Shown in pieces: positions 1-53,828 of a stretch of 64,000 bases of DNA (positions are counted from its first letter, which is position 1; the number at the start of each line of letters is the position of its first letter). A program made the position numbers and the translations under genes. This DNA is from Panicum virgatum (lineage: Eukaryota > Streptophyta > Magnoliopsida > Poales > Poaceae), in the NCBI RefSeq assembly GCF_016808335.1, contig NC_053150.1, positions 29,716,030 through 29,780,029 on the forward strand, given 5' to 3'. The notes below the pieces were generated by a model. That model saw only the letters and a list, made by a program, of their open reading frames with translations, ran no database searches and was not told where the DNA came from.

Positions 1-420
1 TTTCAGATTTAACCCGCGGTCCAGCCTTAGTCAAAAATAATTACGTTTAGGTCCTGTTTTTATGTCTTAGCACCCTGAGTTTCTTTAAAATAGAACCCGC
101 CATCCTGGCCAGACCTTTTTTCACGTCAGACCCTAAGACTTTCCAGTTTTTGCATTTAGGCCCTCGGTTTTAGCAGTAAAGCCCCTGGAACCCTGTTTTC
201 CTTACAAATAAGCCCCTAGAACTTGTTTTTAGCCTAGAAAATGCGTTTTAGCTCCGTTTTAAGCGTTCTTTATATCCACGCGATCATTGTAACGAGTAGA
301 ACAGTTTAGGCTTAGTTTTTCAAGCTGTTTTTATGTATTGATGTACTGTTTCTTAGTTTTATTAGTGTTTGCTTGTATGCTTATTTCTGTGCATTGTTTT
401 GGCCATGTGTTCGTGAGTAG

Positions 421-1615
421 ACGTTGATCCATCTGAGGAGCCCCAGTACCAGTACCAGGAGCAGCCGTCTTCCGAGCATTTTGAGCAGCAGCAGGAGCAG
501 TACGAGGAAGGCAAGTGTAACATGAACAACCCATCACCTTTAAATACATTTACATACTGCATTTTAATATTGTATGCCTATAAGGACTTTCCTAGCCACT
601 TTATATCCTTTATATACACCTTTGGGTTGCATTTTGGCTAGTTGTGCTAGGTTGCTGCGCTATAACACACTCTGGTCCTTTTTAATTAATTTGATTAATG
701 GTTTACTTGAATTTAATTCTGAGAGTGGCACTCTGTGTGGCTTGAGTGGCTCACTTCTCGTTAAAATTGATTTTGTTAGAAACATGGTTTAGGGGGCCAG
801 CACGGTGCTTAGTGCTTGGTTGGGCACTCTCCATAAGGACCGGTTCATAGAGCAACAACCTGGGACAACAGCGCTACCATAAGGCTAGAATGGGATAGAC
901 TTGGCTTACTAATTAGGTCTTTTTGGTTTGGAGTAACTTACCTGCGGGGCAAGAGTAGTAAGCTTCAATGGTCCCTGCTCCTCCGGCTTGGTCTGTGCTT
1001 GGATTGCGCTCCTATGCTTGTACCCCCGGAGGTGGGCCCCATCGTCGCTGACCTAACTCTCGCGGTTACGCCTTACCAACGAGATTCTTTGTAACGGCCT
1101 CGTAGTGAGTCGCTAGTCATCTCACCTAAGGAAGTGTGATGAACCTCTGGCGTAGCTCACGACTTGTGGGTAAAGATGTGCAATCTCTGCAGAGTGTAAA
1201 ACTGGTATACTAGCCGTGCTCACGGTTATGAGCGGCCCAGATCCTCCTTTTGATTAGTGGGGTTGTCTCCTTCCGACGAGGGAGGTGCCTCTCGGGGTTA
1301 CCTTGGTGGTTGGTTTCAGTTTGGTTCTCAGTAGTATCATGATTAAATTTGACTAATTACTATGTAACCGGGTTAATGGTAATTCATCAACTCGTAGTAA
1401 ATAGCTTTAATAAAATCTTGCCAACACTTAAAAGCTAATGCAGTTGAGTCAGCCAACCTTAGAGCCTCATAGTTTGTGTTATACTTGTTGAGTACAAGTT
1501 GTGTACTCACTCTTGCCTCTTCTCTACTTTTTCCTCTTGGATACGCTACTGCTGCTCAGTTCCTGCCGACACGAGGGAGTTCGTCCAGCGCTACCAGGAC
1601 TACGAGGACTTCTAG
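421..1615 (+). CDS. Candidate LTR-encoded mini-gene, last two exons (A0 copy)
   Basis: Two exon-like pieces inside the LTR. Exon 421-510 follows a T-rich tract ending TAG and, read after a phase-1 intron, encodes an acidic Q/E/Y-rich peptide (EEPQYQYQEQP ... EQQQEQYEEG). It ends at AAG|GCAAGT, an ideal GC-AG intron donor. The terminal exon 1560-1615 follows a pyrimidine-rich tract and CTGCTCAG and encodes a short tail ending YQDYEDF then TAG (1613-1615). Joining 510 to 1560 keeps one frame, also phase 1. The same layout recurs in E2 and E3, whose LTRs are otherwise different. I found no conserved AUG upstream, so translation is unproven; the segment could be a spliced leader. Function unknown. 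Confidence 0.4.
1490..1508 (+). other. Perfect hairpin before last 3' splice site (family A)
   Basis: GAGTACA, loop AGTTG, TGTACTC. It lies 51 bases before the candidate terminal exon at 1560 and is followed by CTCTTGCC. The same hairpin occurs at 9642-9660, 23022-23040, 31591-31609, 38574-38592 and 41409-41427. E3 and E2 carry hairpins with different stem pairs at the equivalent place (35888-35905, 56928-56947). Confidence 0.6.
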
Positions 1616-1724
1616 GCGTTCGTCTCCCAGTCGACGTCCCTGTGGCGCCCTGCTTTAGCTTCGGAGAGCTTTATTCGTATTTGTACTTCGCTTCCGCTGT
1701 ATCAGACATTCTCGTCATTATTGT

Positions 1725-1730
1725 AATAAA
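1725..1730 (+). terminator. Candidate poly(A) signal AATAAA in family A LTR
   Basis: GTAATAAATA about 110 bases after the mini-gene stop, downstream of a GCTTCCGCTG motif. The same pair of motifs is found in B (poly(A) at 38805-38810) and in E2 (57210-57215). It would mark the R/U5 end of the LTR transcript. Confidence 0.45.
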
Positions 1731-1954
1731 TAACATTCGTATTCGCTTTATTATATCTTTTTACGTGATATGTGCTATGATATACTGTTCATTCTGTTGT
1801 ATATACGTGTGACTTGATCCTGGCACGTATATGATTGCTCGGTTTATGTTCTTTTATAAACCGGGTGTTACAGAAAGTCCTTATAGGCATACAGTATTAA
1901 AATGCAGTATGAAAATGTATTTAAAGTGATAGGTGGTGTTCATGTTATACTTGC

Positions 1955-2044
1955 CTTCCTCGTACTGCTCCTGCTGCTGCTCAAAGTGCTCGGAAGTCGG
2001 CTGCTCCGGGTACTGGTACTGGGGCTCCTCCGGTAGCTTGACGT
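1955..2044 (-). CDS. LTR mini-gene small exon (A1 3' LTR)
   Basis: 90-base exon homologous to 421-510. It reads D-V-K-L-P-E-E-P-Q-Y then further Q/E/Y-rich sequence and ends before GCAAGT. No stop in the phase-1 frame. The terminal exon of this copy lies off-window beyond the A0 insertion. Confidence 0.35.
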
Positions 2045-3377
2045 CTACTCACGAACACATGGCCAAAACGAGGCACAACATTAAGCATACAAGCAAACAC
2101 TAACAAAACTAAGAAACAGTACATCAATACATAAAAACAGCACACCAAACTAGTCTAAAACTATTCTACGCATTACAACGATCGCGTGGATATAAAGAAC
2201 GCTTAAAACGGAGCTAAAACGCATAATCTAGGCCAAAAACAAGTTCTAGGGGCATATCTGCGAGAAAAACTAAGTTCCAGGGGGTTTTCTGCTAAAACCG
2301 AGGACTAAAACGTAAAAACTGGAAAGTTTTAGGGTCTGACGTGCAAAAAGGCCTAGCCAGGACAGCGGGTTCTATTTTAAAGAAACTCAGGGTGTAAAAT
2401 GTTAAACACAGGACCTAGACGTAAATACTTTTGAATAAGCCAGGACTGCGGGTTGAATCTCGGAAAGCTAAGGGGTTCTTTAGCAAAAGGTACCGGCCGA
2501 ACCGGTATCTTTGGATTGGGATCGTCGGATCTCGATCCGATGGCTCAGGGCGGCTCGGTCCTAGATCTAATCTAGACCGTCGGTCCTAGATCTAGTGCTG
2601 GGGTGCTTGCTGGCGGCGGCGGCGGCGGCGGAACACCGCCGGCGACGCGTTCCCACGGTGGCGAGCTCGCCGGAGACGCCCAATCTGGCGCCCCGGGGGT
2701 CAAACCGACCCGTGCTTGGGTCTGAGAGGTAGCCCGCCGCATGCGTAAGCCACTGGGAGTGGTTGCGCGGGCTATTCGTGGCCGGAGCAGTGGTCTAGGG
2801 TGGTGAGGCGGCGCTACGGCGGCGGAACCCGCCGACGTGCGGTGCTCTACAGGCTGGGGTGCTCTACGGGCTAAACCAACGGGTCTAAAAGGGAGAGCGG
2901 GCGGAGGAGGTCCTCACCGAGGTTCAAATCAAGCAGGGGCGTCTCGCAGAAGTCGCGGCGACGAATGTTGACGGCGGCGCACGGACGGAGTTCGCTGTCC
3001 GGGTCGCTGCAGGGGTCCTCCTGGCCTGCTGATCCGTCTAGGTGACGTGGACACGAGCTGCGAGCGAAAATCGTGGATCAGCGGGGCATGAGGGTCAAAG
3101 GAAGCGAGCAAATACTCGGAATTGGTCTCACCGGCGGTGGCGACGTCGTCCCCGATTCCGGCGCTGGCAAGGGTACGGGGTCGGGCAGCAAGCTTGGAGA
3201 GCCTCCTGGGATAGGGGCGAAGCTTTTGCACGGCTCCGCTGAGGCTGGGGAGCGGCGGAGCGTTGTGGTCGCGGCGGCGCAGGGGACTCTGCGCGGCGGG
3301 GCGGCGCGGGCGTGACTAGCTAGGGTTTGGGGCGGCGATGTGGGGTGATTGGTGGCGCAGGGGGTCCGCTGGTCGGT

Positions 3378-3383
3378 TTAAAG
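3378..3383 (-). promoter_or_regulatory. TATA-like box in GC-rich part of A1 3' LTR
   Basis: CCCCTTTAAACCGACC on the minus strand, about 40 bases before CAAACCCTAGC, a plant 5'-UTR-like motif. The 5' LTR has the same motif at 12061-12066. Related boxes in the other LTRs: CCTTTAATTGG in A2, CCTTAAATGG in B (36888-36896), TATAAG in E2 (53822). Inferred from position only. Confidence 0.3.
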
Positions 3384-4119
3384 GGGCTAGCGCGGGGATC
3401 TCGGCATCCGCGCCCGAGTTTGGAAGGCCGGCGAGCGACTCGGCGGGGATCTCGGCTTCGGTTGCGCGAGGAAGACGATGCTGTAGCTGGGCCCGGGTTG
3501 TCAGTGGGTGCTGGCGTGGGCGCGCTACTGCGGCTGACCAGCTGGGGCCACTAGGCAGAGAGGGGAAAAGGGTGTGCGGGCCGCTCGGGTCGGGCTGAAG
3601 GCGGGCGCTGCAGGTGGAGCCGCTGAAGCTGACATGTGGGCCGTCCATGTCAGTGTAAAGGCGCGCGGCTTCATGTCGCTGAGCGCGGTGCGCTGGGCTG
3701 CGGGGCGCGGACAGCGGAAGGGAGCAGGCCGCGGCGTGGGCCGTAGGGGAGGGAATGGGCCCGCGCTGGGCTGGTGCGGAAGGGGGAGAAGGGAAAAGCT
3801 GGCCGGGCCGGAGCTGGGTTCTTTGGGCCGGTTTTTGGGTTTTGCTTCTATTTCCTATTGCTTTTTCTACTCTATTTTCTATTTCTAAATCAAACCAAGT
3901 TTGAATTCAAATACAATTTGAATTCAACACACACTCAAATAATTAAAACTATGCACCAGCATGAATGCAACACCAAAATTTAAACCTATGATAAAATTTT
4001 AATTACTTAAGGATAAAAAATTTAGATTAAATGCAAGTCTAACACAATAAACCTTAGAAAATTAAATAAAGCGATTTAAATTTATTAATAAATGCTGGAA
4101 TTTAAATTAGGGTGTTACA

Positions 4120-9277: not shown

Positions 9278-12200
9278 TGTAACACCCGGTTTATAAAAGA
9301 ACATAAACCGAGCAATCATATACGTGCCAGGATCAAGTCACACGTATATACAACAGAATGAACAGTATATCACAGCACATATCACGAATAAGTCATAATA
9401 AAGCGAATACGAATGTTATTTATTACATTAATGACAAAGATGTCTGATACAGCGGAAGCGAAGTACAAAATACGGTAAAAGCTCTCAGAAGCTGAGCAGG
9501 GCGCCACAGGGACGTCGACTGGGAGACGAACACCTAGAAGTCCTCGTAGTCCTGGTAGCGCTGGACGAACTCCCTCATGTCGGTAGGAACTGAGCAGCAG
9601 TAGCGTAGCCAAGAGGAAAAAAATAGAGAAGAGGCAAGAGTGAGTACACAACTTGTACTCAACAAGTATAACACAAACTATGAGGCTCTAAGGTTGGCTG
9701 ACTCAACTGCATTAGCTTTTAAGTGTTGGCAAAATTTTATTAAAGCTATTTACTACGAGTTGATGAATTACCATTAACCCAGTTACATAGTAATTAATCA
9801 GAATTAATCATGTTACTACTGAGAACCAAACCACAACCATACCAAAACCCCAAGAGGCACCTCCCTCGTCGGAAGGAGACAGCCCCACTAATCAAAAGGA
9901 GGATCTGGGCCACTCATGACCGTGAGCACGGCTAGTATACCAGTTTTACACACTGCAAAGGTTGCACATCTTTACCCACAAGTCGTGAGCTATGCTAGAG
10001 GTTCATCACACTTCCTTAGGTGAGATGACTAGCGACTCACTACGAGGCCTTTACAAAGAATCTCGTTGGTAGGGAGTAACCGCGAGGGTGGATCGGCGAC
10101 TATGGAGTAGGTCTAGTGGGCGTCAAGACACAGGTACGCAGACCAAGCACAGACGAGCCCACTCAGTACGAGGGCCATAGAAGCTTACCGCCCCTGCCTC
10201 GCAGGTAAGTTACTCCAAACCAAAAAGACCTAATTATTATGCCAAGACCGTCCCATTCCAGTCTTGTGGTAGCGCTGTTGTCCCAGGTTGTCGCTCTATG
10301 AACCGGTCATTATGGAGAGTGGCCAACCAGGTAGTAAGCACCGTGCTGGCCCCCTAAACCATGTTTCTACAAAAACCATATTTTAACGAGACGTGAGCCA
10401 CCCAAGCATGAAGCATAGAGGGCCACTCTCAGAATTAAGTTCAAGTAAACCATTAATCAAATTAATTAAAAGGACCAGAGTGTGTTATAGCGCGGCACCT
10501 AGCACAACTAACCAAAATGCAAACCAAAGGATATATATAAAGGATATAAAGTGGCTAGGAAAGTCCTTATAGGCATGCAGTATTAAAATGCAGTATGAAA
10601 ATGTATTTAAAGTGATAGGTGGTGTTCATGTTATACTTGCCTTCCTCATACTGCTCCTGCTGCTGCTCAAAGTGCTCGGAAGTCGGCTGCTCCGGGTACT
10701 GGTACTGGGGCTCCTCCGGTAGCTCGACGTCTACTCACGAACACATGGCCAAAACGAGGCACAACATTAAGCATACAAGCAAACACTAACAAAACTAAGA
10801 AACAGTACATCAATACATAAAAACAGCACACTAAACTAGTCTAAAACTATTCTACGCGTTACAACGATCGCGTGGATATAAAGAACGCTTAAAACGGAGC
10901 TAAAACGCATAATCTAGGCCAAAAACAAGTTCTAGGGGCTTATCTGCGAGAAAAACTAAGTTCCAGGGGGTTTTCTGCTAAAACCGAGGACTAAAATGTA
11001 AAAACTAGAAAGTTTTAGGGTCTGACGTGCAAAAAGGCCTAGCCAGGACAGCAGGTTCTATTTTAAAGAAACTCAGGGTGTAAAATGTTAAAAACAGGAC
11101 CTAGACGTAAATACTTTTGAATAAGCCAGGACTGCGGGTTGAATCTCGGAAAGCTAAGGGGTTCTTTAGTAAAAGGTACCGGCCGAACCGGTATCTTTGG
11201 ATTGGGATCGTCGGATCTCGATCCGATGGCTCAGGGCGGCTCGGTCTTAGATCTAATCTAGACCTTCGGTCCTAGATCTAGTGGCTGGGGCGCTTGCTGG
11301 CGGCGGCGGCGGCGGAACACCGCCGGCGACACGTTCCCGCGGTGGCGAGCTCGCCAGAGACGCCCAATCCGGCGCCCCGGGGGTCAAACCGACCCGGGCT
11401 TGGGTCTGAGAGGTAGCCCGCCGCATGCGTAAGCCACTGGGAGTGGTTGCGCGGGCTATTCGTGGCCGGAGCAGTGGTCTAGGGTGGTGAGGCGGTGCTA
11501 CGGCGGCGGAACCCGCCGACGTGCGGTGCTCTACAGGCTGGGGTGCTCTACGGGCTAAACCAACGGGTCTAAAAGGGAGAGCGGGCGGAGGAGGTCCTCA
11601 CCGAGGTTCAAATCAAGCAGGGGCGTCTCGCAGAAGTTGCGGCGACGAATGTTGACGGCGGCGCACGGACGGAGTTCGCTGTCCGGGTCGCTGCAGTGGT
11701 CCTCCCGGCCTGCTGATCCGTCTAGGTGACGCGGACACGAGCTGCGAGCGAGAATCGTGGATCAGCGGGGCACGAGGGTCAAAGGTAGCGAGCAAACGCT
11801 CGGAATTGGTCTCACCGGCGGCGGTGACGTCGTCCCCGATTCCGATGCTGGCAAGGGTACGGGGTCGGGCAGCAAGCTTGGAGAGCCTCCAGGGATAGGG
11901 GCGAAGCTTTTGCACGGCTCCGCTGAGGCTGGGGCGCGGCAGAGCGTTGTGGTCGCGGCGGCGCAGGGGACTCTGCACGGCGGGGTGGCGCGGGCATGAC
12001 TAGCTAGGGTTTGGGGCAGCGATGTGGGGTGATTGGTGGCGCAGGGGGTCCGCTGGTTGGTTTAAAGGGGCTAGCGCGGGGATCTCGGCGTCCGCGCCCG
12101 AGTTTGGAAGGCCGGCGAGCGACTCGGCGGGGATCTCGGCTTCGGTTGCGCGAGGAAGACGACGCTGTAGCTGGGCCTGGGTTGTCAGTGGGTGCTGGCG

Positions 12201-12795
12201 TGGGCGTGCTACTGCGGCTGACCAGCTGGGGCCACTAGGCAGAGAGGGGAAAAGGGTGTGCGGGCCGCTCGGGTCGGGCTGAAGGCGGGCGCTGCAGGTG
12301 GAGCCTGAAGCTGACATGTGGGCCGTTCATGTCAGGTGGAGCGGCTTCGTGTAGCTGAGCGCGGTGCCCTGGGCTGCGGGGCGTGGAGAGCGGAAGGGAG
12401 CAGGCCGCGGCGTGGGCCGTAGGGGAGGGAATGGGCCCGCGCTGGGCTGGTGCGGAAGGGGGAGAAGGGAAAAGCTGGCCGGGCCGGAGCTGGGTTCTTT
12501 GGGCCAGTTTTTGGGTTTTGCTTCTATTTCCTATTCCTTTTTCTACTCTATTTTCTATTTCTAAATCAAACAAAGTTTGAATTCAAATACAATTTGAATT
12601 CAACACACACTCAAATGATTAAAACTATGCACCAGCATGAATGCAACACCAAAATTTAAACCTATGATAAAATTTTAATTACTTAAGGATCAAAAATTTA
12701 GATTAAATGCAAGTCTAACACAATAAACCTTAGAAAATTAAATAAAGCGATTTAAATTTATTAATAAATGCTGGAATTTAAATTAGGGTGTTACA
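9278..12795 (-). mobile_element. 5' LTR of element A1 (3518 bp)
   Basis: Full LTR bounded by TGTAACACCC (9278) and GGGTGTTACA (12795). In element orientation: U3 with TTTGAATTCAAAT blocks, TATA-like TTTAAA at 12061-12066, CAAACCCTAGC, a GC-rich transcribed block with candidate splice sites (GCCGCCG|GTGAGA, TCGCTCGCAG|, CCTCG|GTGAGG), the small exon, a roughly 1-kb AT-rich intron-like part, the hairpin and the terminal exon. The right flank is the RT gene of T, so A1 is younger than T. Confidence 0.92.
9534..10730 (-). CDS. LTR mini-gene, last two exons (A1 5' LTR)
   Basis: Small exon 10641-10730 (90 bp, ends at AAG|GCAAGT) and terminal exon 9534-9589 (56 bp, stop TAG), each the same length as in A0. 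No stop in the small exon; the terminal peptide ends EFVQRYQDYEDF. Both junctions are phase 1. The upstream exon frame is unresolved: in the GC-rich block the frame shared with other families meets a TAG, while a different frame stays open from an ATG at 11997 that is ACG in the 3' LTR copy. Confidence 0.35.
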
Positions 12796-19268: not shown

Positions 19269-21056
19269 TGTAACACCCGTAAAAATTCATCCAATTAAAT
19301 CACTCGCTAAAAATTGTTTTCAAAATCTTTTTCGTCGATGAGCTCAAATCGTTTCAAAATCTTTTTTCCGTCCGAGCTCCCAATCTCCCGAAATTTTCTC
19401 CCGGCATTTTGCCGTTCCGACACCAGTACCGATCGCTGTCTCGTCTCTCTGTTCTTCCCTGATCTGCGTGCATGTCACTGTCTGGCCAAACGCCGAGGCA
19501 CACGCATGGCCGACCGCCGCCGCGAATCCCACCGCGTCTCTCTCTCTCTCTCTCTTTCCTTTTTATTTTTCTCCATTTTCTTTTCCCTTTTCTTTTTTCT
19601 TTTTCCCTCCTCCTTTCTTCTCCTTCTTCCTTCTTCTCTCCTTTCCCGCACGTGCGGCATGCCGAGCACGCTCGACATCGGCGCCCAGCCCCCCGGCCAC
19701 CGTCGCCCCCACTTGCACCACTTGCGTGTCCTTCCTCTGCCGCGCCATCACTCCGCAGCCACTACGCGCCACCGCCCTTCCTACTCGCCTCGTCACCCAT
19801 GCCCGCCCCGGCGAGGCGCCCTCGCCGCACACCGCCACCACCACGCCGGCCGTCCTCTCTGCTCGCTCCCCCCCCCACTTGCGGCCTCTTCCTGGTCGCC
19901 CATCCCGTCTCGCTGTGCGCCGTGCCCCCTTGCCCACCTCGACGCGTGCGCGTGCCCAAGCAGCAGGAGTAGAGCTCGCATGGAGCCGAGCTCTCATGCA
20001 GCATGCCGCCGCGCGGCACCTCGCCGTTAGCCTCCGCACCACCCCTGCCCCCCCCACTATGCGCCACCGACCACCCCTGCACGCCGTCTCCTCAGCACCA
20101 CCACGCCACTCCGCGACGCCGAAATGGCCCCCACCGGCATTAATCGCCCGCCCTCGAGAACACCGGCCGGCCATCGCTCTCCCCCCTCCTCCTTGCTCCA
20201 CCCGGCCCATAAGTAGGCCCTCCACCGAGCCCTCCATCCCCACGACTCGCCCACCACCGCGCACCTCCCTCCCTGGCCTCCCAGCGCCGCTGCCCCAAAG
20301 CTCCACTGCCGCCTCCCGCCGGCCACCCTTGACGTTCCTCCCCGCTCCACCCCAGCCCGACGTAATAGGGGGAATAGAACCCCCTCGCTCTCCTCATTCT
20401 TTTCCCCCACCTTCCGGCCGCCGCCACGCCCTGGGCCGCCGGAGAGGGCCGCCGCCGTACGCCGCCCCCCCCTCCTCTGTTCTATTCGGGAGAGAGGAGG
20501 AAGAAGGGCGATTTTGCCTTGAGCCCCTCCCCTTTTCCTCTTTTTCCAAAAGAGCCCTTCCACTCTTTTAATTCTTTTTCAAAAGAAGCCCTCACTTTTT
20601 CTATTTTTCATAATTAGCCCTCCAACCATATAAACATAATTTTAAATAGACCCCTGCCCCTTTCCGGAGTAACACAAATATTTTCAGAAATTATAATCAA
20701 GTCCTTCCACCCTCAAAAATATTTACAAAGAAGCCCCTGAACCTCGGTTTAGCCCGTAAACGCCTCTTCGACCTATCATTTCATGCTCTAAAAATCCTCC
20801 GTTTGCCCCGAAACTTTACTACGCCATTTCTAACATGATTTCAGCTGTGCCATTAGAAAACCACCTAAAAATATTACTCCTATCTGCATATCTTAATTTT
20901 TTTCCGATTCGAGCTCAACGATATAACCTTTATTTCTTTTTCTTTATTGTGTGCGTCATAGATCACAGTGTGAACGAGGGAGAACCCGTCGACGAGCAGT
21001 ACCGCGAGCAAGTGTGCGAGGTGTAACGAACATGGCACCATTTATGCCATTTCGAG
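19269..21056 (+). mobile_element. E3 5' LTR, first segment
   Basis: Starts TGTAACACCCGTAAAAATTC inside the antisense gene of T; 5 bp before it is AAAGG. Layout resembles the other Tekay-type LTRs: AT-rich start, a CT-rich tract (19540-19640), a GC-rich block with TATA-like CATAAGTAGG (20209-20218), then AT-rich sequence. It is interrupted at 21056 by a copia LTR and resumes at 34704. The long C-rich ORFs here are compositional, not genes. Confidence 0.82.
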
Positions 21057-21736
21057 TGATTTTGGTGATCGAATGACAACACAACACTTGGACTAATATG
21101 ATTGTTAAGATGATCATTCTCAGGCTTTTAGGTTCAAGTGATGACAAAGAGAAAGAGAAGATAGGCGTAGCAAGGCCCGAAGGGCCGCCCCTACGGGGGT
21201 TCCGCTAGCAGACGGGGGTCGAGGGGGAGCCGCCCCTCGCGGGTCTCAGGGCAGCGCCCTGAAAGCTCTTCAGATCAGGAGCACCGGAAGAACCGATGCT
21301 TAAGCATCGGTGCATCCGACGCTTGTCAGAAGAACCGACGGTCCAAGAAAGGGCATCGGTGCATTGGGCGTACTATATACCAGAGACGATGTCAAGTGCC
21401 CAGGAGAAGTTTATTCAGCACCGGTTCAACCGACGGTGCATCAGAGTATTGCGTCGGTGCAATGACGTCAGCGCCCAGGAGAAGATCCTCAAGCACTGGA
21501 GGAACCGGTGATGCATTGGTACAAAGCATCGGTTCAACCGATGATCACTGCGTCAGCTGTCAGGAGTTCAACGGCTACTTCGGGTTATGAGTGACCTGAT
21601 AAACCGATGCTACCCTTGCCAGAGGCATCGGTTCATCCGGTGATACGCTGATTTTGTGCTGACCGTTGGAGCAACGGCTACAAGACTTGGTGGCCTATAT
21701 ATACGCCTCACCCCGGCCATTTGAAGCTTGCTGGAG
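21057..21736 (+). mobile_element. SIRE/Maximus-type copia LTR, 5' part
   Basis: TGATTTTGGTGATCGAATGAC onward is the diverged counterpart of the copia LTR at 61591-62994 read in reverse. It ends at 21736 where family A gag begins; about 690 bp of LTR are missing before the LTR end at 34647-34703. No internal copia region, so probably a solo LTR in the E3 LTR. Flanks share CGAG (21053-21056 and 34704-34707). Confidence 0.82.
21293..21641. repeat. Palindromic short repeats in copia LTR
   Basis: ACCGATGCTTAAGCATCGGT at 21293-21312 is a perfect 20-bp palindrome. Related words: 21419-21438 (CACCGGTTCAACCGACGGTG), 21526-21543 (GCATCGGTTCAACCGATG) and 21598-21641. The better array is in the other copy (62417-62779). 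Confidence 0.65.
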
Positions 21737-22086
21737 TACAGAACTCGCTCCCGATCATCGCACTAGGTGATGTCCAGCTGACGCTCCACTGCACGGAGCC
21801 AGTCGTCAGCCTGAAGAGGGTCGGACGTGTGAGAAAACGTCGGCGGGTGACCCCTCAGGAACTCAGCACGCCTGTCGCGAGGCTGCGGCGGTGGAGGAGG
21901 CGGAGGCTGAGTGTAAGCCTGCTGAAGAGCCTGAACAGTGTTGTTCAGGGTAGCCATCATCTGCATCTGGAGCTGGAAGTACTGCTCCGGAGTCAAAGGC
22001 GGCGGCATCGGGATCCCGGTCCCCTGGATGTTCTGACCCTGGTTGTTCTGCCCCTGCTGGTCAGAACCACGCCTGGTGTTCACCAT
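21737..22086 (-). pseudogene. Truncated family A gag, first exon (A2 left end)
   Basis: Gag N-terminus from MVNTRRGSDQQG (22086) to about QLDIT, cut at the junction with the copia LTR at 21736/21737. It is nearly identical to the start of 30140-30655. The junction has microhomology (GCTG near the breakpoint in both parents), pointing to a deletion by illegitimate recombination. Confidence 0.85.
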
Positions 22087-22642
22087 CTGATTTTGGACAA
22101 AAGAGTTTCACGAGTAAGGATATTGCAGGAATAAATTCAGATGGATATGTTAACTCTTTGCGGAAAAAGACTCAGCCATGATAAAGTAGACAGGATAGAG
22201 TGGACTGTTTTACCCCCAACGATCTAATCCATTTTATTGATTAATTAACTTTAGCATAAGAGTGTTTTTCTCTAAACAAATTTAAACTGCTAAGCTATAC
22301 AATCATTCAAAAATCCAAATCAAACATGTAGCATAATAACAAGCAGACAATTTTCACGACTTAGCCGAGTTTAACATACGACTCGACTAACACAATGTGT
22401 CACAGAACGTGCTATCGTATTATTATAAAAGGATCGCCTAGCTTACTCATGGTGGTCAGATGATTGATTCAAGCCAAAATCTACGAAAACTATTCTTCAG
22501 AGAGAGAAATCAAGGCAAGAAGGGTAAAAGTCTTAGAATTCAAGGGGTATAATAGTAAAATAGTTTCAGCAGACAAGGATTGGAGAGAAGAACTCCTAAA
22601 ACTCGACCAGTTCTATCTAGGCTTTCGTCCTACAGTCGATAC

Positions 22643-22655
22643 GGCTCTGATACCA
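22643..22655 (-). other. Second PBS of A2 (left copy)
   Basis: TGGTATCAGAGCC on the minus strand, three bases from the LTR at 22659. It shows that a second internal region once followed this LTR. Confidence 0.85.
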
Positions 22656-22658
22656 CTC

Positions 22659-25600
22659 TGTAACACCCGGTTTATAAAAGGACATAAACTGAGCAGTCAT
22701 ATACGTGCCAGGATCAAGTCACACATATATACAACAGAATGAACAGTATATCACAGCACATATCACGAATAAGACATAATAAATCGAAATACGAATGTTA
22801 TTTATTACATTAATGACATAAATGTCTGATACAGCGGAAGCGAAGTACAAGTACGATAAAAACTCTCCGAAGCTGAGCAGGGCGCCACAGGGACGTTGAC
22901 TGGGAGACGAACTCCTAGAAGTCCTCGTAGTCCTGGTAGCGCTGGACGAACTCCCTCGTGTCGGCAGGAACTTAGCAGCAGTAGCGTAGCCAAGAGGAAA
23001 AAGTAGAGAAGAGGCAAGAGTGAGTACACAACTTGTACTCAACAAGTATAACACAAACTATGAGGCTCTAAGGTTGGCTGACCGACTGCATTAGCTTTTA
23101 AGTGTTGGCAAGATTTTATTAAAGCTAATTACTACCAGTTGATGAATTACCATTAACCCAGTTACATAGTAATTAATCAAATTTAATCATGATACTACTG
23201 AGGACCAAACCAAAACCAAGCCACCAAGGTAACCCCGAGAGGCACCTCCCTCGTCGGAAGGAGACAACCCCACTAATCAAAAGGAGGATCTGGGCTGCTC
23301 ATGACCGAGAGCACGGCTAGTATACCAGTTTTACACTCTGCAGAGGTTGCACATCTTTACCCACAAGTCATGAGCTACGCTAGAGGTTCATCACACTTCC
23401 TTAGGTGAGATGACTAGCGACTCACTACGAGGCCGTTACAAAGAATCTCGTTGGTAAGGCGTAACCGCGAGAGTTAGGTCAGCGACGATGGGGCCCACCT
23501 CCGGGGGTACAAGCACAGGAGTGCAATCCAAGCATAGACCAAGCCGGAGGAGCAGGGACCATTGAAACTTACTACTCTTGCCCTGCAGGTAAGTTACTCC
23601 AAACCAAAAAGACCTAATTAGTAAGCCAAGTCTATCCCATTCTAGCCTTGTGGTAGCGCTGTTGTCCCAGGTTGTCGCACTATGAACCGGTCCTTATGGA
23701 GAGTGGCCAACCAAGCACTAAGCACCGTGCTGGCCCCCTAAACCATGTTTCTACAAAAACCATCTTTTAACGAGACGTGAGCCACTCATCCACACAGAGG
23801 GCCACTCTCAGAATTAAGTTCAAGTAAAACTATTAATCAATTTAATTAAAAAGGACCAGAGTGTGTTATAGCGCGGCACCTAGCACAACTAACCAAAATG
23901 CAACCCAAAGGATATATAAAGGATATAAAGTGGCTAGGAAAATCCTTATAGGCATACAGTATTAAAATGCAGTATGTAAATGTATTTAAAGGTGATGGGT
24001 TGTTCATGTTACACTTGCCTTCCTCGTACTGCTCTGGCTGCTGCTTAAACTGCTCCGAAGACGGCTGCTCCTGGTACTGGTACTGGGGCTTCTCAGATGG
24101 ATCAGCGTCTACTCACGAACACATGGCCAAAACAAAGCACAATAATAAGCATACAAGCAAACACTAACAAAAACTAAGAAACAATACATCAATACAATAA
24201 AACAGCACATTAAACTAGTCTAAAACTATTCTATGCGTTACAACGATCGCGTGGACATAAAGAACGCTTAAAACGGAGCTAAAACGCATAATCTTGGCTA
24301 AAAACAAGGTTCAGGGGCTTATTTGTAAGAAAACTGAAGTTCCAGGGGGTTTTCTGCAAAAACCGAGGGCTAAAATGTAATTAAACAAAAGCTTCAGGGT
24401 CTAACTCGCAAAAACTTCATGCCTGGACTGCGGGTACTAATACTGGAAAATGCAGGGGCCTACGCGCTAAAATCTGGGCCTCAGTGTAAATATTTTTACA
24501 CTAAATAGGAATGCGGGTTGAATCAGAGAAAGGGCAGGGGCTCTTTAACAAAACTTCCAGGCCGAACCAGTACGCACGTATTAGGGCCGTTGGATCTAGA
24601 TCTAGTGGCTCAGATCTGAGGGAGACTCGATCTAATCCTAAGCGTCCAAGACAGAGCGCGGGTCGGCGGCGCTAGTCGCCGGAGACCAAGCTCCGCGGCG
24701 GCGCTGCGCGGGAGCTTGCCGGACTTGGCCAAACTTTGCCGTCCGAGGGTCAAATCGACCCGTTTTTGGGTCTGGGGTGACCTACGGGGCACGTGTAGTC
24801 CACCTGGGCTCTAAACGGAGCTCGGGGAGGCTCGGGGCGGCACGTGCTGCGTCGGCGGCGGCTCTGCGCGGCGGACTTCGCCGGCGAGCGGGATTCCAAG
24901 GGCGCCAGGGGCTACGGATCTCAAAAACTAACGCCAAAAGGGACCGAGGAGGGTTGTGGGTTCTCACCGGGGCTTCGGGTGGCCGGAGAAGTCGCGCAGG
25001 TGGGTCGTCGGCGAGGTTCGGTGGCGGGATCGGTGCGGTGGCCGTGGATAGGTCACTGCGGAGGTGCTCCGAGACTGCTGACTCGCCGGGAAGACACGAG
25101 TGGGCCCTGCGAAGGTGGTCCAGGGGTCAAAGAAGCCCTGAGGTCGACGGCGGCGGGGAATTTCTTGCGAAAGGGCTCACCTGCGGCGGCACCTTCGCGA
25201 GCAATTCCGGCGTGGATGGGGTCCGGAGTCGCAGCAGCGGCTCGGTGCGCGTCTGGGCGTCAAGGTGGGGCTAAGGCGGGGAGTTGCAGGGATGGGCTGC
25301 AGCGGAGCGGCGCGGCTACGTCGGCGCAGAGGTGCGGCACGACGGGGCTGCCCGGTTGCGGCGGCTAGGGTTGTGTGGGGCGGCGCGTGGGTGGATGGGG
25401 TGCAGGGGGAGCCGTGGGGGCCAATTAAAGGCCTGCGGGGATTTTGGCATCCGCGCCCGATACGGAAGGCCGGCGAGCATCCCGGGCGGGGATCGCGGCT
25501 GGCCGTTGCGCGGCCGGGAGAGGCGGGGAAGACGGGCCAGGTCAGGCGGGCCCGGGCGGTCAGCGAAAGCGGGGTCGGGCGAGTGGGGCGTGCGCTCTGC

Positions 25601-26056
25601 GGGCGTGAGGCGCCGGCTGGCTGACGGGTGGGCCCGACTGGGACGCTGCGTCGCGTGGAGTGGGCCGCTGCGCGCTAGGCGGCCAAGCGCGAGCGGGGTT
25701 TGGGCCAAGCGGTTTGCTGGGCCGGATCGGGTGGAGAGACGGTTTTGGGCTGAGTGGGGAAGGATAGGCTGGGTTGTTTTGGGTTTGGGCTCCTTTTCTA
25801 TTTCTTTTCTTTTCCTCTCAACTCAAAATTATTTGAATTCAAATGAATTTGAATTCAAACTCCTATACAAACAAACAAAACAAAACCATGCACCAGCATG
25901 AATGCAACACCAAAATTTAAACCTATGATAAAATTTTAATTACTTGTGAAACAAAAATTTAGATTAAATGCCAACTAAACACAATAAACCTTAGAAATTT
26001 GAATAAAGCCATTTAAATTTATTAATAAATGCTGAAATTTAAACTAGGGTGTTACA
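22659..26056 (-). mobile_element. A2 middle/left LTR (3398 bp)
   Basis: Full LTR, TGTAACACCC to GGGTGTTACA. It serves as 3' LTR for the internal region 26057-31227 and as 5' LTR for the truncated internal region on its left. Same architecture as A1 LTRs but a diverged GC-rich block: TATA-like CCTTTAATTGG near 25424, exon 1 end GCCGCCGCAG|GTGAGC, acceptor ACCTTCGCAG|, donor CCCCG|GTGAGA. Clearly closer to 31228-34646 than to the A1 LTRs. Confidence 0.92.
22915..24108 (-). CDS. LTR mini-gene, last two exons (A2 left LTR)
   Basis: Small exon 24019-24108 (90 bp) encodes EKPQYQYQEQP and on to EQYEEG before GCAAGT; terminal exon 22915-22970 (56 bp) ends with the family stop. The acceptor reads CTGCTAAG here instead of CTGCTCAG. 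No stop in the small exon. Confidence 0.35.
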
Positions 26057-30139: not shown

Positions 30140-30655
30140 CTGCTTCAGTGCAAGGAACTCCTTCTGCTTCATCTTCATAACGCCCGCGGGGACGTTGTGG
30201 TTGCGAAAACGCTCCCTGAACTGGAGCCAAGTGAGAGACTCGCGTTCATGAACTGGGTGGGACTCCCACCAGTCCAAAGCTGCCCCTCGCAGCTGTCCTG
30301 CTGCGTACAGAACTCGCTCCCGATCATCGCACTGGGCGATATCCAGCTGACGCTCCACTACACGGAGCCAGTCGTCAGCTTGAAGAGGGTCGGACGTGTG
30401 AGAAAACGTCGGCGGGTGACCCCTTAGGAACTCAGCACGCCTGTCGCGAGGCTGCGGCGGTGGAGGAGGCGGAGGCTGAGTGTGAGCCTGCTGAAGAGCC
30501 TGAACAGTGTTGTTCAGGGTAGCCATCATCTGCATCTGGAGATGGAAGTACTGCTCCGGAGTCAAAGGCGGCGGCATCGGGATCCCGGTCCCCTGGATGT
30601 TCTGACCCTGGTTGTTCTGCCCCTGCTGGTCAGAACCACACTTGGTGTTCACCAT
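30140..30655 (-). pseudogene. A2 gag, first exon (open)
   Basis: 172 codons from MVNTKCGSDQQG with no frameshift: proline run, SDPLQADDWLRVVERQLD, AALDWWESHPV, RERFRNHNVPAGV, KEFLALKQ. It forms the first part of the Retrotrans_gag domain and needs splicing to 30028 for the rest. ATG chosen because it is the first in frame and is conserved in A1 and in the left fragment. Marked pseudogene because the rest of gag-pol carries stops. Confidence 0.88.
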
Positions 30656-31211
30656 CTGATTTTGGACAAAAGAGTTTCACGAGTAAGGATATTGCAGGAA
30701 TAAATTCAGATGGATATGTTAACTCTTTGCGGAAAAAGACTCAGCCATGATAAAGTAGACAGGATAGAGTGGACTGTTTTACCCCCAACGATCTAATCCA
30801 TTTTATTGATTAATTAACTTTAGCACAAGAGTGTTTTTCTCTAAACAAATTTAAACCGCTAAGCTATACAATCATTCAAAAATCCAAATCAAACATGTAG
30901 CATAATAACAAGCAGACAATTTTCACGACTTAGCCGAGTTTAACATACGACTCGACTAACACAACGCGTCGCAGAACGTGCTATCGTATTATTATAAAAG
31001 GATCGCCTAGCTTACTCATGGTGGTCAGATGATTGATTCAGGCCAAAATCTACGAAAACTATTCTTCAGAGAGAGAAATCAAGGCAAGAAGGGTAAAAGT
31101 CATAGAATTCAAGGGGTATAATAGTAAAATAGTTTCAGCAGACAAGGATTGGAGAGAAGAACTCCTAAAACTCGACCAGTTCTATCTAGGCTTTCGTCCT
31201 ACAGTCGATAC

Positions 31212-31224
31212 GGCTCTGATACCA
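31212..31224 (-). other. Primer binding site of A2
   Basis: TGGTATCAGAGCC, exact plant initiator-Met type PBS, three bases from the 5' LTR. Confidence 0.88.
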
Positions 31225-31227
31225 CTC

Positions 31228-34200
31228 TGTAACACCCGGTTTATAAAAGGACATAAACCGAGCAGTCATATACGTGCCAGGATCAAGTCACACGTATATA
31301 CAATAGAATGAACAGTATATCACAGCACATATCACGAATAAGACATAATAAATCGAAATACGAATGTTATTTATTACATTAATGACATAAATGTCTGATA
31401 CAGCGGAAGCGAAGTACAAGTACGATAAAAACTCTCCGAAGCTGAGCAGGGCGCCACAGGGACGTCGACTGGGAGACGAACACCTAGAAGTCCTCGTAGT
31501 CCTGGTAGCGCTGGACGAACTCCCTCGTGTCGGCAGGAACTGAGCAGCAGTAGCGTAGCCAAGAGGAAAAAGTAGAGAAGAGGCAAGAGTGAGTACACAA
31601 CTTGTACTCAACAAGTATAACACAAACTATGAGGCTCTAAGGTTGGCTGACCGACTGCATTAGCTTTTAAGTGTTGGCAAATTTTATTAAAGCTAATTAC
31701 TACCAGTTGATGAATTACCATTAACCCAGTTACATAGTAATTAATCAAATTTAATCATGATACTACTGAGGACCAAACCAAAACCAAGCCACCAAGGTAA
31801 CCCCGAGAGGCACCTCCCTCGTCGGAAGGAGACAACCCCACTAATCAAAAGGAGGATCTGGGCCACTCATGACCATGAGCACGGCTAGTATACCAGTTTT
31901 ACACTCTGCAGAGGTTGCACATCTTTACCCACAAGTCGTGAGCTACGCTAGAGGTTCATCACACTTCCTTAGGTGAGATGACTAGCGACTCACTACGAGG
32001 CCGTTACAAAGAATGTCGTTGGTAAGGCGTAACCGCGAGAGTTAGGTCAGCGACGATGGGGCCCACCTCCGGGGGTACAAGCACAGGAGCGCAATCCAAG
32101 CACAGACCAAGCCGGAGGAGCAGGGACCATTGAAACTTACTACTCTTGCCCCGCAGGTAAGTTACTCCAAACCAAAAAGACCTAATTAGTAAGCCAAGTC
32201 TATCCCATTCTAGCCTTGTGGTAGCGCTGTTGTCCCAGGTTGTCGCTCTATGAACCGGTCCTTATGGAGAGTGGCCAACCAAGCACTAAGCACCGTGCTG
32301 GCCCCCTAAACCATGTTTCTACAAAAACCATCTTTTAACGAGACGTGAGCCACTCATCCACACAGAGGGCCACTCTCAGAATTAAGTTCAAGTAAAACCA
32401 TTAATCAATTTAATTAAAAAGGACCAGAGTGTGTTATAGCGCGGCACCTAGCAAAACTAACCAAAATGCAACCCAAAGTATATATAAAGGATATAAAGTG
32501 GCTAGGAAAATCCTTATAGGCATACAGTATTAAAATGCAGTATGTAAATGTATTTAAAGGTGATGGGTTGTTCATGTTACACTTGCCTTCCTCATACTGC
32601 TCTGGCTGCTGTTCAAACTGCTCCGAAGACGGCTGCTCCTGGTACTGGTACTGGGGCTCCTCAGATGGATCAGCGTCTACTCACGAACACATGGCCAAAA
32701 CAAAGCACAATAATAAGCATACAAGCAAACACTAACAAAAACTAAGAAACAATACATCAATACAATAAAATAGCACATTAAACTAGTCTAAAACTATTCT
32801 ATGCGTTACAACGATCGCGTGGACATAAAGAACGCTTAAAACGGAGCTAAAATGCATAATCTAGGCTAAAAACAAGGTTCAGGGGCTTATTTGTAAGAAA
32901 ACTGAAGTTCCAGGGGGTTTTCTGCAAAAACCGAGGGCTAAAACGTAATTAAACTAAAGCTTCAGGGTCTAACTCACAAAAACTTCATGCCTGGACTGCG
33001 GGTACTAATACTGGAAAATGCAGGGGCCTACGCGCTAAAATCTGGGCCTCAGTGTAAATATTTTTACACTAAATAGGACTGCGGGTTGAATCAGAGAAAG
33101 GGCAGGGGCTCTTTAACAAAACTTCCAGGCCGAACCGGTACACACGTATTAGGGCCGTTGGATCTAGATCTAGTGGCTCAGATCTGAGGGAGACTCGATC
33201 TAATCCTAAGCGTCCAAGGCAGATCGGACGGCTGTGATTTAACAGAGCGCGGGTCGGCGGCGCTAGTCGCCGGAGACCAAGTTCCGCGGCGGCGCTTCGC
33301 GGGAGCTCGCCGGACTTGGCCAAACTTGGCCGTCCGAGGGTCAAATCGACCCGTTTTTGGGTCTGGGGTGACCTTCGGGGCACGTGTAGTCCACCTGGGC
33401 TCTAAACGGAGCTCGGGGAGGCTCGGGGTGGCACGTGCTGCGTCGGCGGCGGCTCTGCGCGGTGGACTTCGCCGGCGAGTGGGATTCCAAGGGCGCCAGG
33501 GGCTACAGATCACAAAAACTAACGCCAAAAGGGACCGGGAAGGGTTGTGGGTTCTCATCGGGGCTTCTGGTGGCCGGAGACGTCGCGCAGGTGGGTCGTC
33601 GGCGAGGCTCGGCGGCGGGATCGGTGTGGTGGCCATGGACAGGTCACTGCGGGGGTGCTCCGAGACTGCTGACTCGTCGGGAAGACACGAGTGGGCCCTG
33701 CGAAGGTGGTCCAGGGGTCAAAGAAGCCCTGAGATCGACGGCGACGGGGAATTTCTTGCGAAAGGGCTCACCTGCGGCGGCACCTTCGCGAGCAATTCCG
33801 GCGTGGATGGGTTCCGGAGTCGGAGCAGTGGCTCGGTGCGCGTCTGGGCGTCGAGGTGGGGCTAAGGCGGGGAGTTGCAGGGATGGGCTGCAGCGGAGCG
33901 GCGCGGCTACGTCGGCGCAGAGGTGCGGCACAACGGGGCTGCACGGTTGCGGCGGCTAGGGTTGTGTGGGGCGGCGCGTGGGTGGATGGGGTGCAGGGGG
34001 AGCCGTGGGGGCCAATTAAAGGCCTGCGGGGATCTTGGCGTCCGCGCCCGATACGGAAGGCCGGCGAGCATCCCGGGCGGGGATCGCGGCTGGCCGTTGC
34101 GCGGCCGGGAGAGGCGGGGAAGACGGGCCTGGTCAGGCGGGCCCGGGCGGTCAGCGAAAGCGGGGTCGGGCGAGTGGGGCGTGCGCTCTGCGGGTGTGAG

Positions 34201-34646
34201 GCGCCGGCTAGCTGACGGGTGGGCCCGACTGGGACGGTGCGTCGCGTGGAGTGGGCCGCTGCGCGCTAGGCGGCCAAGCGCGAGCGGGGTTTGGGCCGAG
34301 CGGTTGTCTGGGCCGGATCGGGTGGAGACAGGGTTTTGGGCCGAGTGGGGAAGGATAGGCTGGGTTGTTTTGGGTTTGGGCTCCTTTTCTATTTCTTTTC
34401 TTTTCCTCTCAACTCAAATTATTTGAATTCAAATGAATTTGAATTCAAACTCCTATACAAACAAACAAAACAAAACCATGCACCAGCATGAATGCAACAC
34501 CAAAATTTAAACCTATGATAAAATTTTAATTACTTGTGAAACAAAAATTTAGATTAAATGCCAACTAAACACAATAAACCTTAGAAATTTGAATAAAGCC
34601 ATTAAAATTTATTAAAAAATGCTGAAATTTAAACTAGGGTGTTACA
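31228..34646 (-). mobile_element. 5' LTR of A2 (3419 bp)
   Basis: Full LTR with TG/CA ends. Highly similar to 22659-26056 with scattered substitutions; one difference is G to A in the candidate donor after the GC-rich block (CCCCG|ATGAGA here). The right flank is the end of the copia LTR, beginning TATTA, so A2 inserted into that LTR. Confidence 0.92.
31484..32676 (-). CDS. LTR mini-gene, last two exons (A2 5' LTR)
   Basis: Small exon 32587-32676 (90 bp) and terminal exon 31484-31539 (56 bp), same boundaries and phases as the other family A copies. Some differences from A1 in the peptide region are synonymous (Ser codons TCC/TCG). Confidence 0.35.
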
Positions 34647-34703: not shown

Positions 34704-35887
34704 CGAGGACTAGTACCGCGACCCCGAACCCGAAGGACAGTACCTCAATCAGGATTTCCCGCAAGGCTTTGTGAACGGCAAGTTCAATCTCATCCTTTGA
34801 TGCATATTTTGTCCCAATTTTATAAACACAACCTACTGGCCTATTTTACAAAACTGCATATGCTTTTACTGCTAAAACATGGTTGGATAGCCACCCCTTG
34901 ATTTGTTTTAACCATTCCTTGACCACCTAGATTGATGTCTACATATGATTCGTTCTGTGTGGATGTTAATCACTGCTAGAATTGCTTAGGACCTTATACT
35001 CGTTCTACTACACATCAAATGTGATTATTTATAAAAGAAAATGTGTGAGTGTGTGGGAAGGAAAAATGGTGGATTTGTTGAAAATAAATGAAAGACGTGT
35101 CTCGATGAGATGGATGGCATTTCTGTGTGAATTGCCAGAAGGTGTGCTCGTACCTGTGTGGTTGAGCAAGGTTGGGAGATATCCATCTTGTCACCATTAA
35201 GGACCGAGTTGATGTGTCATCTTGCCTGACTCAACTATCGTGCAAACCACTCGACCGTTGTGTGTGGCAACGGCTCAGCGTAAACCCCATTAGTTAGTCT
35301 GATAGCCATCAGGAGGGCTGAGGGCAACGGGTGATCAAGAAGAAGGGATAAGCTCTGTGTGACTTATGCCCCGGTTGAACCTCAGTGATAAGTCAATGAC
35401 CCCTTGGTGGATCCCGTGGTGGCTAGTCAGGTCTAGCTAAGGCGGGTAATGGCTTTGTTGGGATCTGCACTGACACTAAGGTGATCGTGCTGTGGTATCC
35501 CGCTTGTGGGTAAAGTTGCACACCTTTGCAGAGTTAAAAACCTATTTGAATAGCCATGCCCACGGTACTGGGCGAGTTATGGTTTGGTCACATAACTAGT
35601 GTTTCTTCTGGGAATGGCTGGGATGGCGTGAGTTGTTTTAGAAAGGTGTCCGGCAGCTGTGCCGTGTGCTACAGCGGATGAGGAGTCCGGTGGCAACTTT
35701 TAAAATCTTGGATCCTGTGTGGATCAACCCCACCGGTCAAAAAAGAATTGTTTTAAAAACCTATTTCAAAATAAACCCTTGCATGTGTTAAAATTAGCTT
35801 TCCGCAAATTAAACCCTAGCCTTATCCTTGATTTATCATGTGCATGAACTCTGTTTATACCCCCTCCGTGGGTGCGGTTGGACTTCC

Positions 35888-35905: not shown

Positions 35906-35997
35906 CCTCTTGCTTAATTTTCACAGAGGAAGATCCAGACTTTGTTCCCGAGGATGTTGAGTTGGAGTTCCGTTCTGCACCCAACCTTGCCTGTGGA

Positions 35998-36002: not shown

Positions 36003-37132
36003 TGTAACACCCTAATTTAAATTTCAATATTTAATAATAAATTTAATTGGCTTTATTTAATTTTTAAGGTTTTATATGCTTAGCCTTGCATTTAAATTAA
36101 TTTTCTTTCATAAGGAATTAAAATTTATTTTAGGTTTAACATGTTTGTGCATTCATGCTGGTGCATAAGTTTTATTTGGTTGAGTGCATAGGGTTTGAAT
36201 TCAAATTTATGTTTGAATTCAAAATAGGTTGAGTGAAGTTTGAAAAACAAAAGAGGAAGAAGAGAGAACTGGCCCGAGCCATCCCAGCAAACCCAATCCA
36301 GCTTTCGGCCCAGCAATCCAGCCTAGCAGCGGCCCGGTCTCCTCTCCCCTCCCTTTTCCTCAGCCGCTCCACACCCCCAGCCCGTTGGCCGTGCGGCCCA
36401 GCACTTGCCTCACTCACGCCCGCTCAGCCCAGCATCACCCTCAACCCAGTGTCACGCGTCATCCTTGTTACCCACCTGGGCCCGCCTGTCAGCCCAACCT
36501 GCAATGCCGCGCTCGCCTCGCCCGACCCCCGCAGTGCTCTCGCCCGCGCTCGCTGACAGCCACGGCCCACCTTGTCGGCACTCAACCCAGCTCGCGTTCT
36601 CGCCCTCTGTCACGCTACCGGTCCGGCCCCACCCGTCAGCCAGCCCAGAGCCCCGCGTCCGCACGCGCCCGCGCCCGGTTCGGTGCCTGTCATCCCGGCC
36701 CCTCATGTTAGCGCACCCGACCACCACCCCGCGCGCGTCACCCCCTTCCTCTCTCTGACCGAGCAGCCCCGCATGTCAGCTTTTCCTTCCCTTTTCGTCC
36801 CCGTCGCGCAAACAGCTGCCATGATCCTCGCCGAGGATTGCGCCGCGACTTTCCCAAGCCCGCACGCCGAGATCCCCGAACCCCCTCCTTAAATGGCCGT
36901 GACCCTCTGCACCCTCCTCCCATCCCGCAGCCGCCGCACCAAACCGTTGCCACCCCGCTGCCTTGCCCCGCCACGCCGCACCCTCTACTCCATCGTGATC
37001 TCACCACCCACAGCACCCCTGTCTCCAAGAGCCGCCGCAGAAGCTCCGTTCGAGCACCAGGAGCGACCCTGTGGCCACAATCCTCGACCACATCACCTGC
37101 AGTGACCGGAATTGTGCCGGACGCCGCCGCAG

Positions 37133-37209
37133 GTAAGTCGGCCCACCGCCCCGATTTCCTCGCCGCCGGTAACCCTTACCTCGTCCTGACCCCTGGTACA
37201 CCTTCGCAG
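37133..37209 (+). other. Candidate first intron inside B LTR (77 bp)
   Basis: GCCGCCGCAG|GTAAGT to ACACCTTCGCAG|CAC. In the 3' LTR the same intron is 40996-41081 with the poly(C) run inside. A2 has a matching donor and acceptor (GCCGCCGCAG|GTGAGC, ACCTTCGCAG|). Confidence 0.5.
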
Positions 37210-37546
37210 CACATCGCCGCACCTGCCCGTGGAGATCCAGGCACCCGGAGGACCACTGCAACACCCCGTCCGCGAGCTCTGCCTCCGCTCCGCCGCCGGT
37301 CAACGTCGCCATCGACCCTGCCCGGGCGTCCAGCCTGCTCTGCACCTCAGTGAGCATCAGCGTCCCCTCCTGAACCTTTTGCACACTCAACCCAGCTCTG
37401 GAATGGCCTGCACGCCGCACACCGGCGAGCACCGCCGCGCAGACCCGCCACCGCCACCGCGCACGCCGCCCCGAGCCTTAGTGTTTGCTCTTGTTTGCAT
37501 GTATGTGTATGTGCTGGACTTGTTTTGGCGTTGCGATCGTGAGTAG

Positions 37547-38708: not shown

Positions 38709-38954
38709 GCGGTCGTCTCCCAGTCGACGTCCCTGTGGCGCCCAGCTTCCGAGTTTCGTACTTGTTTTACGCTTCCGCTATATCAGACGTTTTGTCATTC
38801 ATGTAATAAATAATATTAGTACTTGCTTTATTATATCTTTTATGTGATATGTGCTGTGATATACTGTTCATTCTGTTGTATATACGTGTGACTTGATCCT
38901 GGCGCATATATGATTGCTCGGTTTATGTCCTTTTGTAAACCAGGTTTTACAGAG

Positions 38955-42030: not shown

Positions 42031-42155
42031 GTAAGTTGGCCGTAGGACGTGACCCTAGGATCGAGACCCTTTTTCGAAACCTTTCCCCATTAGAACTTTC
42101 CTTGCTTAACCCTTTTTCCACACAAACACTCGCCACTAACTCTTGCCTGTTCCTG

Positions 42156-53821: not shown

Positions 53822-53828
53822 TATAAGA
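53822..53828 (+). promoter_or_regulatory. TATA box of E2 LTR
   Basis: TTGGCCTATAAGAACCCCC in a GC-rich context. A start site near 53850 would make U3 about 800 bp and R about 3.4 kb. Confidence 0.5.

Follow-up and report, generated by a model that had tools for sequence, protein, structure and literature searches.

LTRs count as non-coding DNA, and gene prediction is usually run after they have been masked; a protein encoded in an LTR is known from the superantigen gene of mouse mammary tumour virus. That product is an animal retrovirus protein of another character, and its likeness to the sequences described here lies in the LTR location. According to the available part of a review (PMC12786077), plant LTR elements are generally without introns, with Ogre and EVADE as exceptions. 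Ogre, EVADE and Bagy-2 are likewise plant LTR retrotransposons with spliced RNA, but in the available parts of PMC12786077 and PMC7264820 their splicing is tied to subgenomic RNAs or to an env-like ORF, and coding LTR exons are not mentioned there. The additional or extra ORFs of plant LTR retrotransposons (PMC7264820 and PMC6317226, both in part) also represent conserved coding capacity outside gag-pol. As far as the available text of PMC6317226 describes them, extra ORFs have at least 250 codons and lie in the internal region, in the 5' or 3' part of the element, whereas here we found two short, probably spliced exons inside the LTR with products of 48-86 residues. No mention of LTR-resident ORFs was found in the available part of the review of additional ORFs (PMC7264820), and no spliced protein coded in a plant LTR was found in the available text of the literature on LTR-coded proteins, extra ORFs and LTR introns, which included few subscription papers. 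By analogy, the nearest printed mechanism would be CERV of the C. elegans element Cer1 (PMC10309623, available part), likewise a spliced-RNA product of a Ty3-type element whose unspliced RNA is the genome. CERV joins gag exons to a fifth exon, has 517 residues and is needed for export of the unspliced RNA, whereas the products described here have 48-86 residues and are encoded in the LTR.

The window, i.e., the whole stretch of 64,000 nucleotides of Panicum virgatum DNA analysed here, is a nest of LTR retrotransposons (Table 1). In the LTRs, an acidic exon is followed by a GC-AG intron of roughly 1 kb and then by a stop-containing terminal exon that finishes just short of the LTR end. As an explanation of the whole, we consider it probable (roughly 0.78) that at least four chromovirus-type families carry in their LTRs the last two exons of a coding sequence from which a spliced accessory protein would be made. 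LTR ends of the TG..CA type, a 5-bp target-site duplication and a primer site after the 5' LTR were present (TGTAACACC..GGTGTTACA, TGGTATCAGAGC), and the primer site presumably fits the initiator tRNA-Met. Element C is flanked by TAGGG at both ends, a 5-bp target-site duplication. In the Pfam analysis, the internal region of E2 was found to code for gag, protease, RT, RNase H, integrase and chromodomain; the first four scored above the cut-off, as did Chromo with 27.3 bits (cut-off 25.1), and the integrase core reached 30.6 bits, slightly under the cut-off of 32.6. Since these gag-pol domains include a chromodomain, E2 is a chromovirus; this assignment rests on the domains, and the clade name Tekay is the label of the first-pass annotation. 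In B, gag, protease, RT and RNase H were detected by Pfam. The start of the B internal region recurs behind both B LTRs (21736-22656, 30305-31225), as in a tandem LTR-internal-LTR-internal array of which B would be a part. Between primer site and gag, E2 carries an extra ORF of 237 residues (47210-47923, + strand), coiled-coil-like and with an acidic tail, and E3 apparently has two tandem related ORFs (42095-42797 and 42969-43613, + strand); the extra ORFs of E2 and E3 matched each other weakly (E 0.001). Rfam gave no match within the window, and no relatives were found in the viral contig set or the genome contig set.

Table 1. LTRs, predicted exons and candidate signals in the window (a slash marks an exon boundary).
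Feature	Position	Strand	Remark
A0, 3' part of LTR	1-1872	+	inserted in A1
A0 exon 2 (acidic exon)	421-510	+	GTAG/ before; ends GAAG/GCAAGT; phase 1-1
A0 GC-AG intron	511-1559	+	
A0 hairpin TGAGTAC..GTACTCA	1489-1509	+	upstream of acceptor
A0 terminal exon	1560-1615	+	after acceptor CTCAG/; stop TAG
A0 AATAAA, candidate poly(A) signal	1725-1730	+	read in sequence
A1 LTR	1874-4119	-	
A1 exon 2	1955-2044	-	
A2 LTR	9278-12795	-	
A2 exon 2	10641-10730	-	
A2 terminal exon	9534-9589	-	
B1 LTR	22659-26056	-	
B1 candidate 74-nt mini-intron	25107-25180	-	precedes exon 1b
B1 candidate leader exon 1b, 139 nt	24968-25106	-	no consistent coding frame
B1 exon 2	24019-24108	-	
B1 terminal exon	22915-22970	-	
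B2 LTR	31228-34646	-	
B2 exon 2	32587-32676	-	
B2 terminal exon	31484-31539	-	
C5 LTR	36003-38952	+	
C5 exon 2	37547-37630	+	in-frame TAG in C5 copy
C5 terminal exon	38653-38708	+	
C3 LTR	39865-41786	+	
C3 terminal exon	41488-41543	+	exon 2 missing through deletion
D, LTR fragment	44121-44429	-	
D terminal exon	44372-44427	-	within LTR fragment
E3 LTR	apparent start 19269; primer site 42018	+	interrupted by copia-like insertion and by C
E3 exon 2, left piece	20962-21021	+	
E3 exon 2, right piece	34709-34777	+	ends G/GCAAGT; in-frame TAG 34711-34713
E3 terminal exon up to conserved-stop position	35927-35964	+	TTG in window copy
E2 5' LTR, truncated	about 44430-45624	+	
E2 5' LTR terminal exon	45153-45268	+	acceptor altered
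E2 3' LTR	53043-57433	+	
E2 TATA-like box TATAAGAA	53822-53829	+	before GC-rich leader
E2 short upstream ORF MAGEI-stop	53890-53907	+	after TATA-like box, good start context
E2 second TATA-like box TATAAAT	55719-55725	+	about 120 nt before exon 2
E2 exon 2	55847-55990	+	ATAG/ before; ends GAAG/GCAAGC
E2 GC-AG intron	55991-56961	+	
E2 terminal exon	56962-57077	+	stop TGA

The exon pairs that the first-pass annotation had proposed for A0 and E2 were all present in the sequence, as were the GC donors of both, the acceptor of A0 and the hairpin that precedes the acceptor; both junctions are in phase 1, and the joined frame was indeed open in A0 and E2. Exon 2 lies behind TAG/A in A, E2 and E3, its length is 2+3n+1 nt, and exon 3 continues in frame. 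The upstream exons of A1 and A2 had been thought to disagree in frame; this was an error, as both read in the A0 frame (DVKLPEEP.. and DVELPEEP..). The 5' LTR copy of E2 has CAA at the acceptor and the 3' copy CAG. The missing middle of C3 was considered as a scar of splicing, but its ends are not splice sites, and it was taken as an ordinary deletion. In E3, exon 2 is split by the copia-like insertion with the target-site duplication CGAGG (21017-21021 / 34704-34708), and its pieces of 60 and 69 nt add up to the 129 nt that most intact copies have. The conserved E3 stop is a TAG after ..EEDPDFIPEDVE; at the equivalent position 35962-35964 the window copy has TTG, indicating that the end at 36000, as first annotated, is peculiar to this copy. 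For E3 the annotated boundaries had to be moved: the left piece ends at 21021, the right piece starts at 34709, and the stop lies before 36000. A further family, F, was detected via the public protein P0220; its exon 2 was open and followed by a GGCAAG donor in 4/4 copies, and exon 3 was located by pattern in three.

Similarity searches of the 1.13-Gb genome gave the best 40 (A), 40 (C), 40 (E2) and 41 (E3) places, from which 20 copies per family were taken, second LTRs of one element being omitted where the coordinates revealed them. With the window copy added as one row for A, C and E2, the comparisons held 21 rows for each of these families and 20 for E3. The GC donor was found in 79 of the 83 rows (A 21/21, C 21/21, E2 18/21, E3 19/20) and the AG acceptor in 81 (A 21/21, C 20/21, E2 20/21, E3 20/20). 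The hairpin, sought as the pattern TGAGTA[CT]..[AG]TACTCA, was detected in 20/21 (A), 19/21 (C), 21/21 (E2), 15/21 (E3) and 4/4 (F) rows, its last pair being C-G in A and C, mostly C-G in E3, T-A in E2, and T-G or T-A in F. By eye, the A intron (1141-1250) and the E3 intron (35495-35600) are similar around TGCAGAGT..TAGCC.TG..CACGGT, which suggests common descent of these introns.

When all pairs of copies were compared in the spliced phase-1 frame, pN/pS was 0.32 in A, 0.30 in E2 (0.15 for exon 3 alone), 0.50 in E3 and 0.72, a weak value, in C, with E2 rows L016 and L021 and E3 rows L103, L107 and L108 omitted. The two shifted frames gave 1.33 and 0.99 (A), 0.89 and 1.63 (C), 1.27 and 1.32 (E2), and 0.68 and 2.06 (E3), and the intron frames 0.86-1.55; pol, compared between A and B, had a pN/pS of 0.23. 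Mean diversity at codon positions 1/2/3 was.015/.032/.076 in A (third-position excess, p.007),.062/.043/.117 in E2 (p.00025; exon 3 alone.044/.025/.141),.127/.065/.141 in E3 (p.02, the same three rows omitted) and.118/.070/.116 in C (p.19), the p-values coming from permutations that ignore the relatedness of copies. Indels had a length of 3n in 8/11 cases in exons versus 13/117 in introns (Fisher p 1.7e-5), and the three exon indels of other lengths were all in E2. The spliced frame was open in 16/21 A, 17/21 E2, 5/21 C and 9/20 E3 rows, and 41 of the 54 premature stops were TAG (A 5/6, C 21/24, E2 3/11, E3 12/13, two E3 rows omitted), an excess as would be expected from CAG deamination in silenced copies. 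In the public set of E2-type proteins, diversity was 0.129 in exon 2 versus 0.340 upstream and 0.560 in the intron. Substitution ratios and frame-breaking indels, part of the evidence by which the first-pass annotation proposed to judge the idea, thus favour coding in A, E2 and E3 (pN/pS 0.30-0.50) and do so weakly in C. Young and similar copies picked by similarity could mimic selection, as the rows came from lists of the best matches to the window copies, cut at about 40 per family, the permutations disregard kinship, and C is weak; yet in these very copies neither introns nor shifted frames carried such a signal, and A, E2 and E3 each showed it separately, so that we regard a sampling effect as extremely unlikely. 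Collectively, this comparison showed protein-level selection on the predicted spliced frame in A, E2 and E3.

The joined products comprise 48 (A), 86 (E2), 84 (F) and 55 (E3) residues and are acidic in all four families, with 19-40% D+E, 2-7% K+R and a pI at the floor of the program. Translating A, E2 and E3 in the shifted frames gives basic products instead. They differ in sequence between families; E2 and F share a near-identical end motif, FED[LM]FASLTWPCTL.PGWSVEWD. No Pfam family scored above the cut-off for the peptides, and DUF7639 (E 0.0065 with the A0 peptide and 0.024 with one of seven further peptides, absent in P0121 and P0220) was judged composition-driven and rejected. No relative of solved structure was found (best PDB E 0.97), and the AlphaFold model of the peptide had a pLDDT of 53 with no confident fold. 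A non-coding leader intron kept for RNA processing only, with the open frame as a by-product, would agree with the lack of an AUG, with a hairpin pair that varies by family, and with the candidate non-coding exons of the leader; against it, the codon-position bias and low pN/pS are confined to the spliced frame, the exon indels are of 3n length, and the products of four families are acidic, making this explanation very unlikely.

A search of 5.8 billion public proteins with the joined E2 peptide gave 160 matches, the best 120 of them listed. Protein P0121 was 95% identical to the entire joined E2 query (E 8e-50), and its ..SAQEG-TNFEDLF.. corresponded to the predicted junction; P0220, of family F, also joined the exons at the predicted junction (..YAQEG-ETFEDMF..). 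These were, by pattern, the sole joined proteins among 135 public proteins of E2 or F type, and the source of both is JGI, where the library may be RNA or DNA. No joined A-type product was found by pattern among the best 120 of 230 matches to the joined A peptide, and none of the 25 matches obtained after the length window had been widened was a longer spliced product. As queries against the genome, the joined proteins of E2, F and A gave 151, 150 and 150 matches from 13,162, 14,688 and 16,883 candidates, with 150 scored each. Contiguous exons 2 and 3 were not found among the matches listed for these probes, one of the three listings being slightly short of complete, and the listed matches stopped at or before residue 67 of 89 (E2), 63 of 91 (F) and 42 of 48 (A). 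As no intron-less genomic copy was among them, P0121 and P0220 are more simply explained as derived from spliced RNA. Taken together, the predicted LTR exons of A, E2 and E3 are a real coding sequence under selection and very probably spliced; F is well supported by its product, and C is weak on selection.

Regarding the start of translation, the first-pass annotation had rightly noted the lack of a conserved AUG, and none is conserved across families. In the E2 leader (12 rows), no in-frame AUG reaches exon 2; among the leaders of A1, A2, B1, B2 and C5, only that of A2 has an in-frame M, and all 21 A rows have a TGA that ends the frame directly upstream of exon 2. In F, an ATG seven codons upstream is kept in 3/4 copies, and about 101 of the 150 genome matches listed start there (hand count). 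Many A-type public ORFs begin with MCSWVD.., in a set biased towards open frames. A start of exon 2 further upstream (MKERN.., MCSWV..) was rejected for families other than F, because protein constraint drops near the TAG/ boundary. The leaders of A1, A2, B1, B2 and C5 share a candidate mini-intron of 74-77 nt and a leader exon of 139-140 nt, whose GTGAG and CAG sites align within an otherwise diverged GC-rich region. The stop of MAGEI in E2 is a TAG kept in 9/12 rows, with CAG in the other three (rows from L069-L081). A coding E2 leader was rejected, as codon-position variation in the 12 rows favoured, by eye, no fitting frame; for this comparison, 9 of 20 upstream stretches had been dropped as too dissimilar, and at the A loci L001-L008 the sequence upstream of exon 2 was too diverse for comparison. 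The start of translation may lie in an exon outside the LTR, at a codon other than AUG, or at an AUG that is specific to a family and a little upstream of exon 2.

The first of these starts would make the LTR exons an alternative C-terminus, in which splicing connects a gag, pol or pre-gag exon that has an AUG to exon 2 of the 3' LTR and a solo LTR makes nothing. The precedent is CERV of Cer1, where gag exons are spliced to a downstream exon (PMC10309623, available part). In all four families exon 2 starts in phase 1 after an AG, in an LTR without a conserved AUG, and the pol frame of E2 has a phase-1 CAG/GTATAT near its end, unchanged or nearly so in 12 other copies, along with further phase-1 donors. 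This E2 site lies in coding sequence of about 95% identity, which makes its conservation uninformative; moreover, the pol end of A and B lacks a donor of this kind, and P0121 and P0220 retain LTR-like sequence right before exon 2, indicating that the exon-2 acceptor was unused in both. We hold the alternative C-terminus to be possible, though doubtful. The original proposal is supported in part: the spliced, coding and selected nature of the sequence is backed by pN/pS, the splice sites, and P0121 and P0220; a self-contained gene that solo LTRs express may exist, but no AUG conserved across families was found for it.

Under our main reading of a spliced accessory protein, transcription from the LTR would give two classes of RNA, intron-retaining and spliced. 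The former would serve as genome and gag-pol mRNA, the weak GC donor probably favouring intron retention and the hairpin that precedes the acceptor perhaps doing so too, and the RNA spliced in the LTR would yield a small, acidic, aromatic-containing accessory protein, predicted to be largely disordered. If reverse-transcribed, spliced RNA loses LTR sequence, and this fits the lack of intron-less copies among the scored matches. More speculatively, and in our opinion rather unlikely, grass chromoviruses might keep a trans-acting regulatory gene in the LTR, whose acidic aromatic tail, exemplified by the motif shared by E2 and F and resembling an activation or export domain, would boost or de-silence LTR transcription or export unspliced RNA. 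Spliced RNA would then be the sole source of the protein, which would come from the LTR itself or form an alternative C-terminus of the integrase-chromodomain protein; if LTR-made, it would also be expressed by solo LTRs, which could help full-length relatives in trans.

Should thousands of LTR copies hold a spliced coding sequence under selection, part of what grass genomes encode would have been missed, these elements would possess an accessory protein, and solo LTRs would be possible sources of protein. The LTR-borne coding sequence may also help to explain the LTR length of 3-4 kb.
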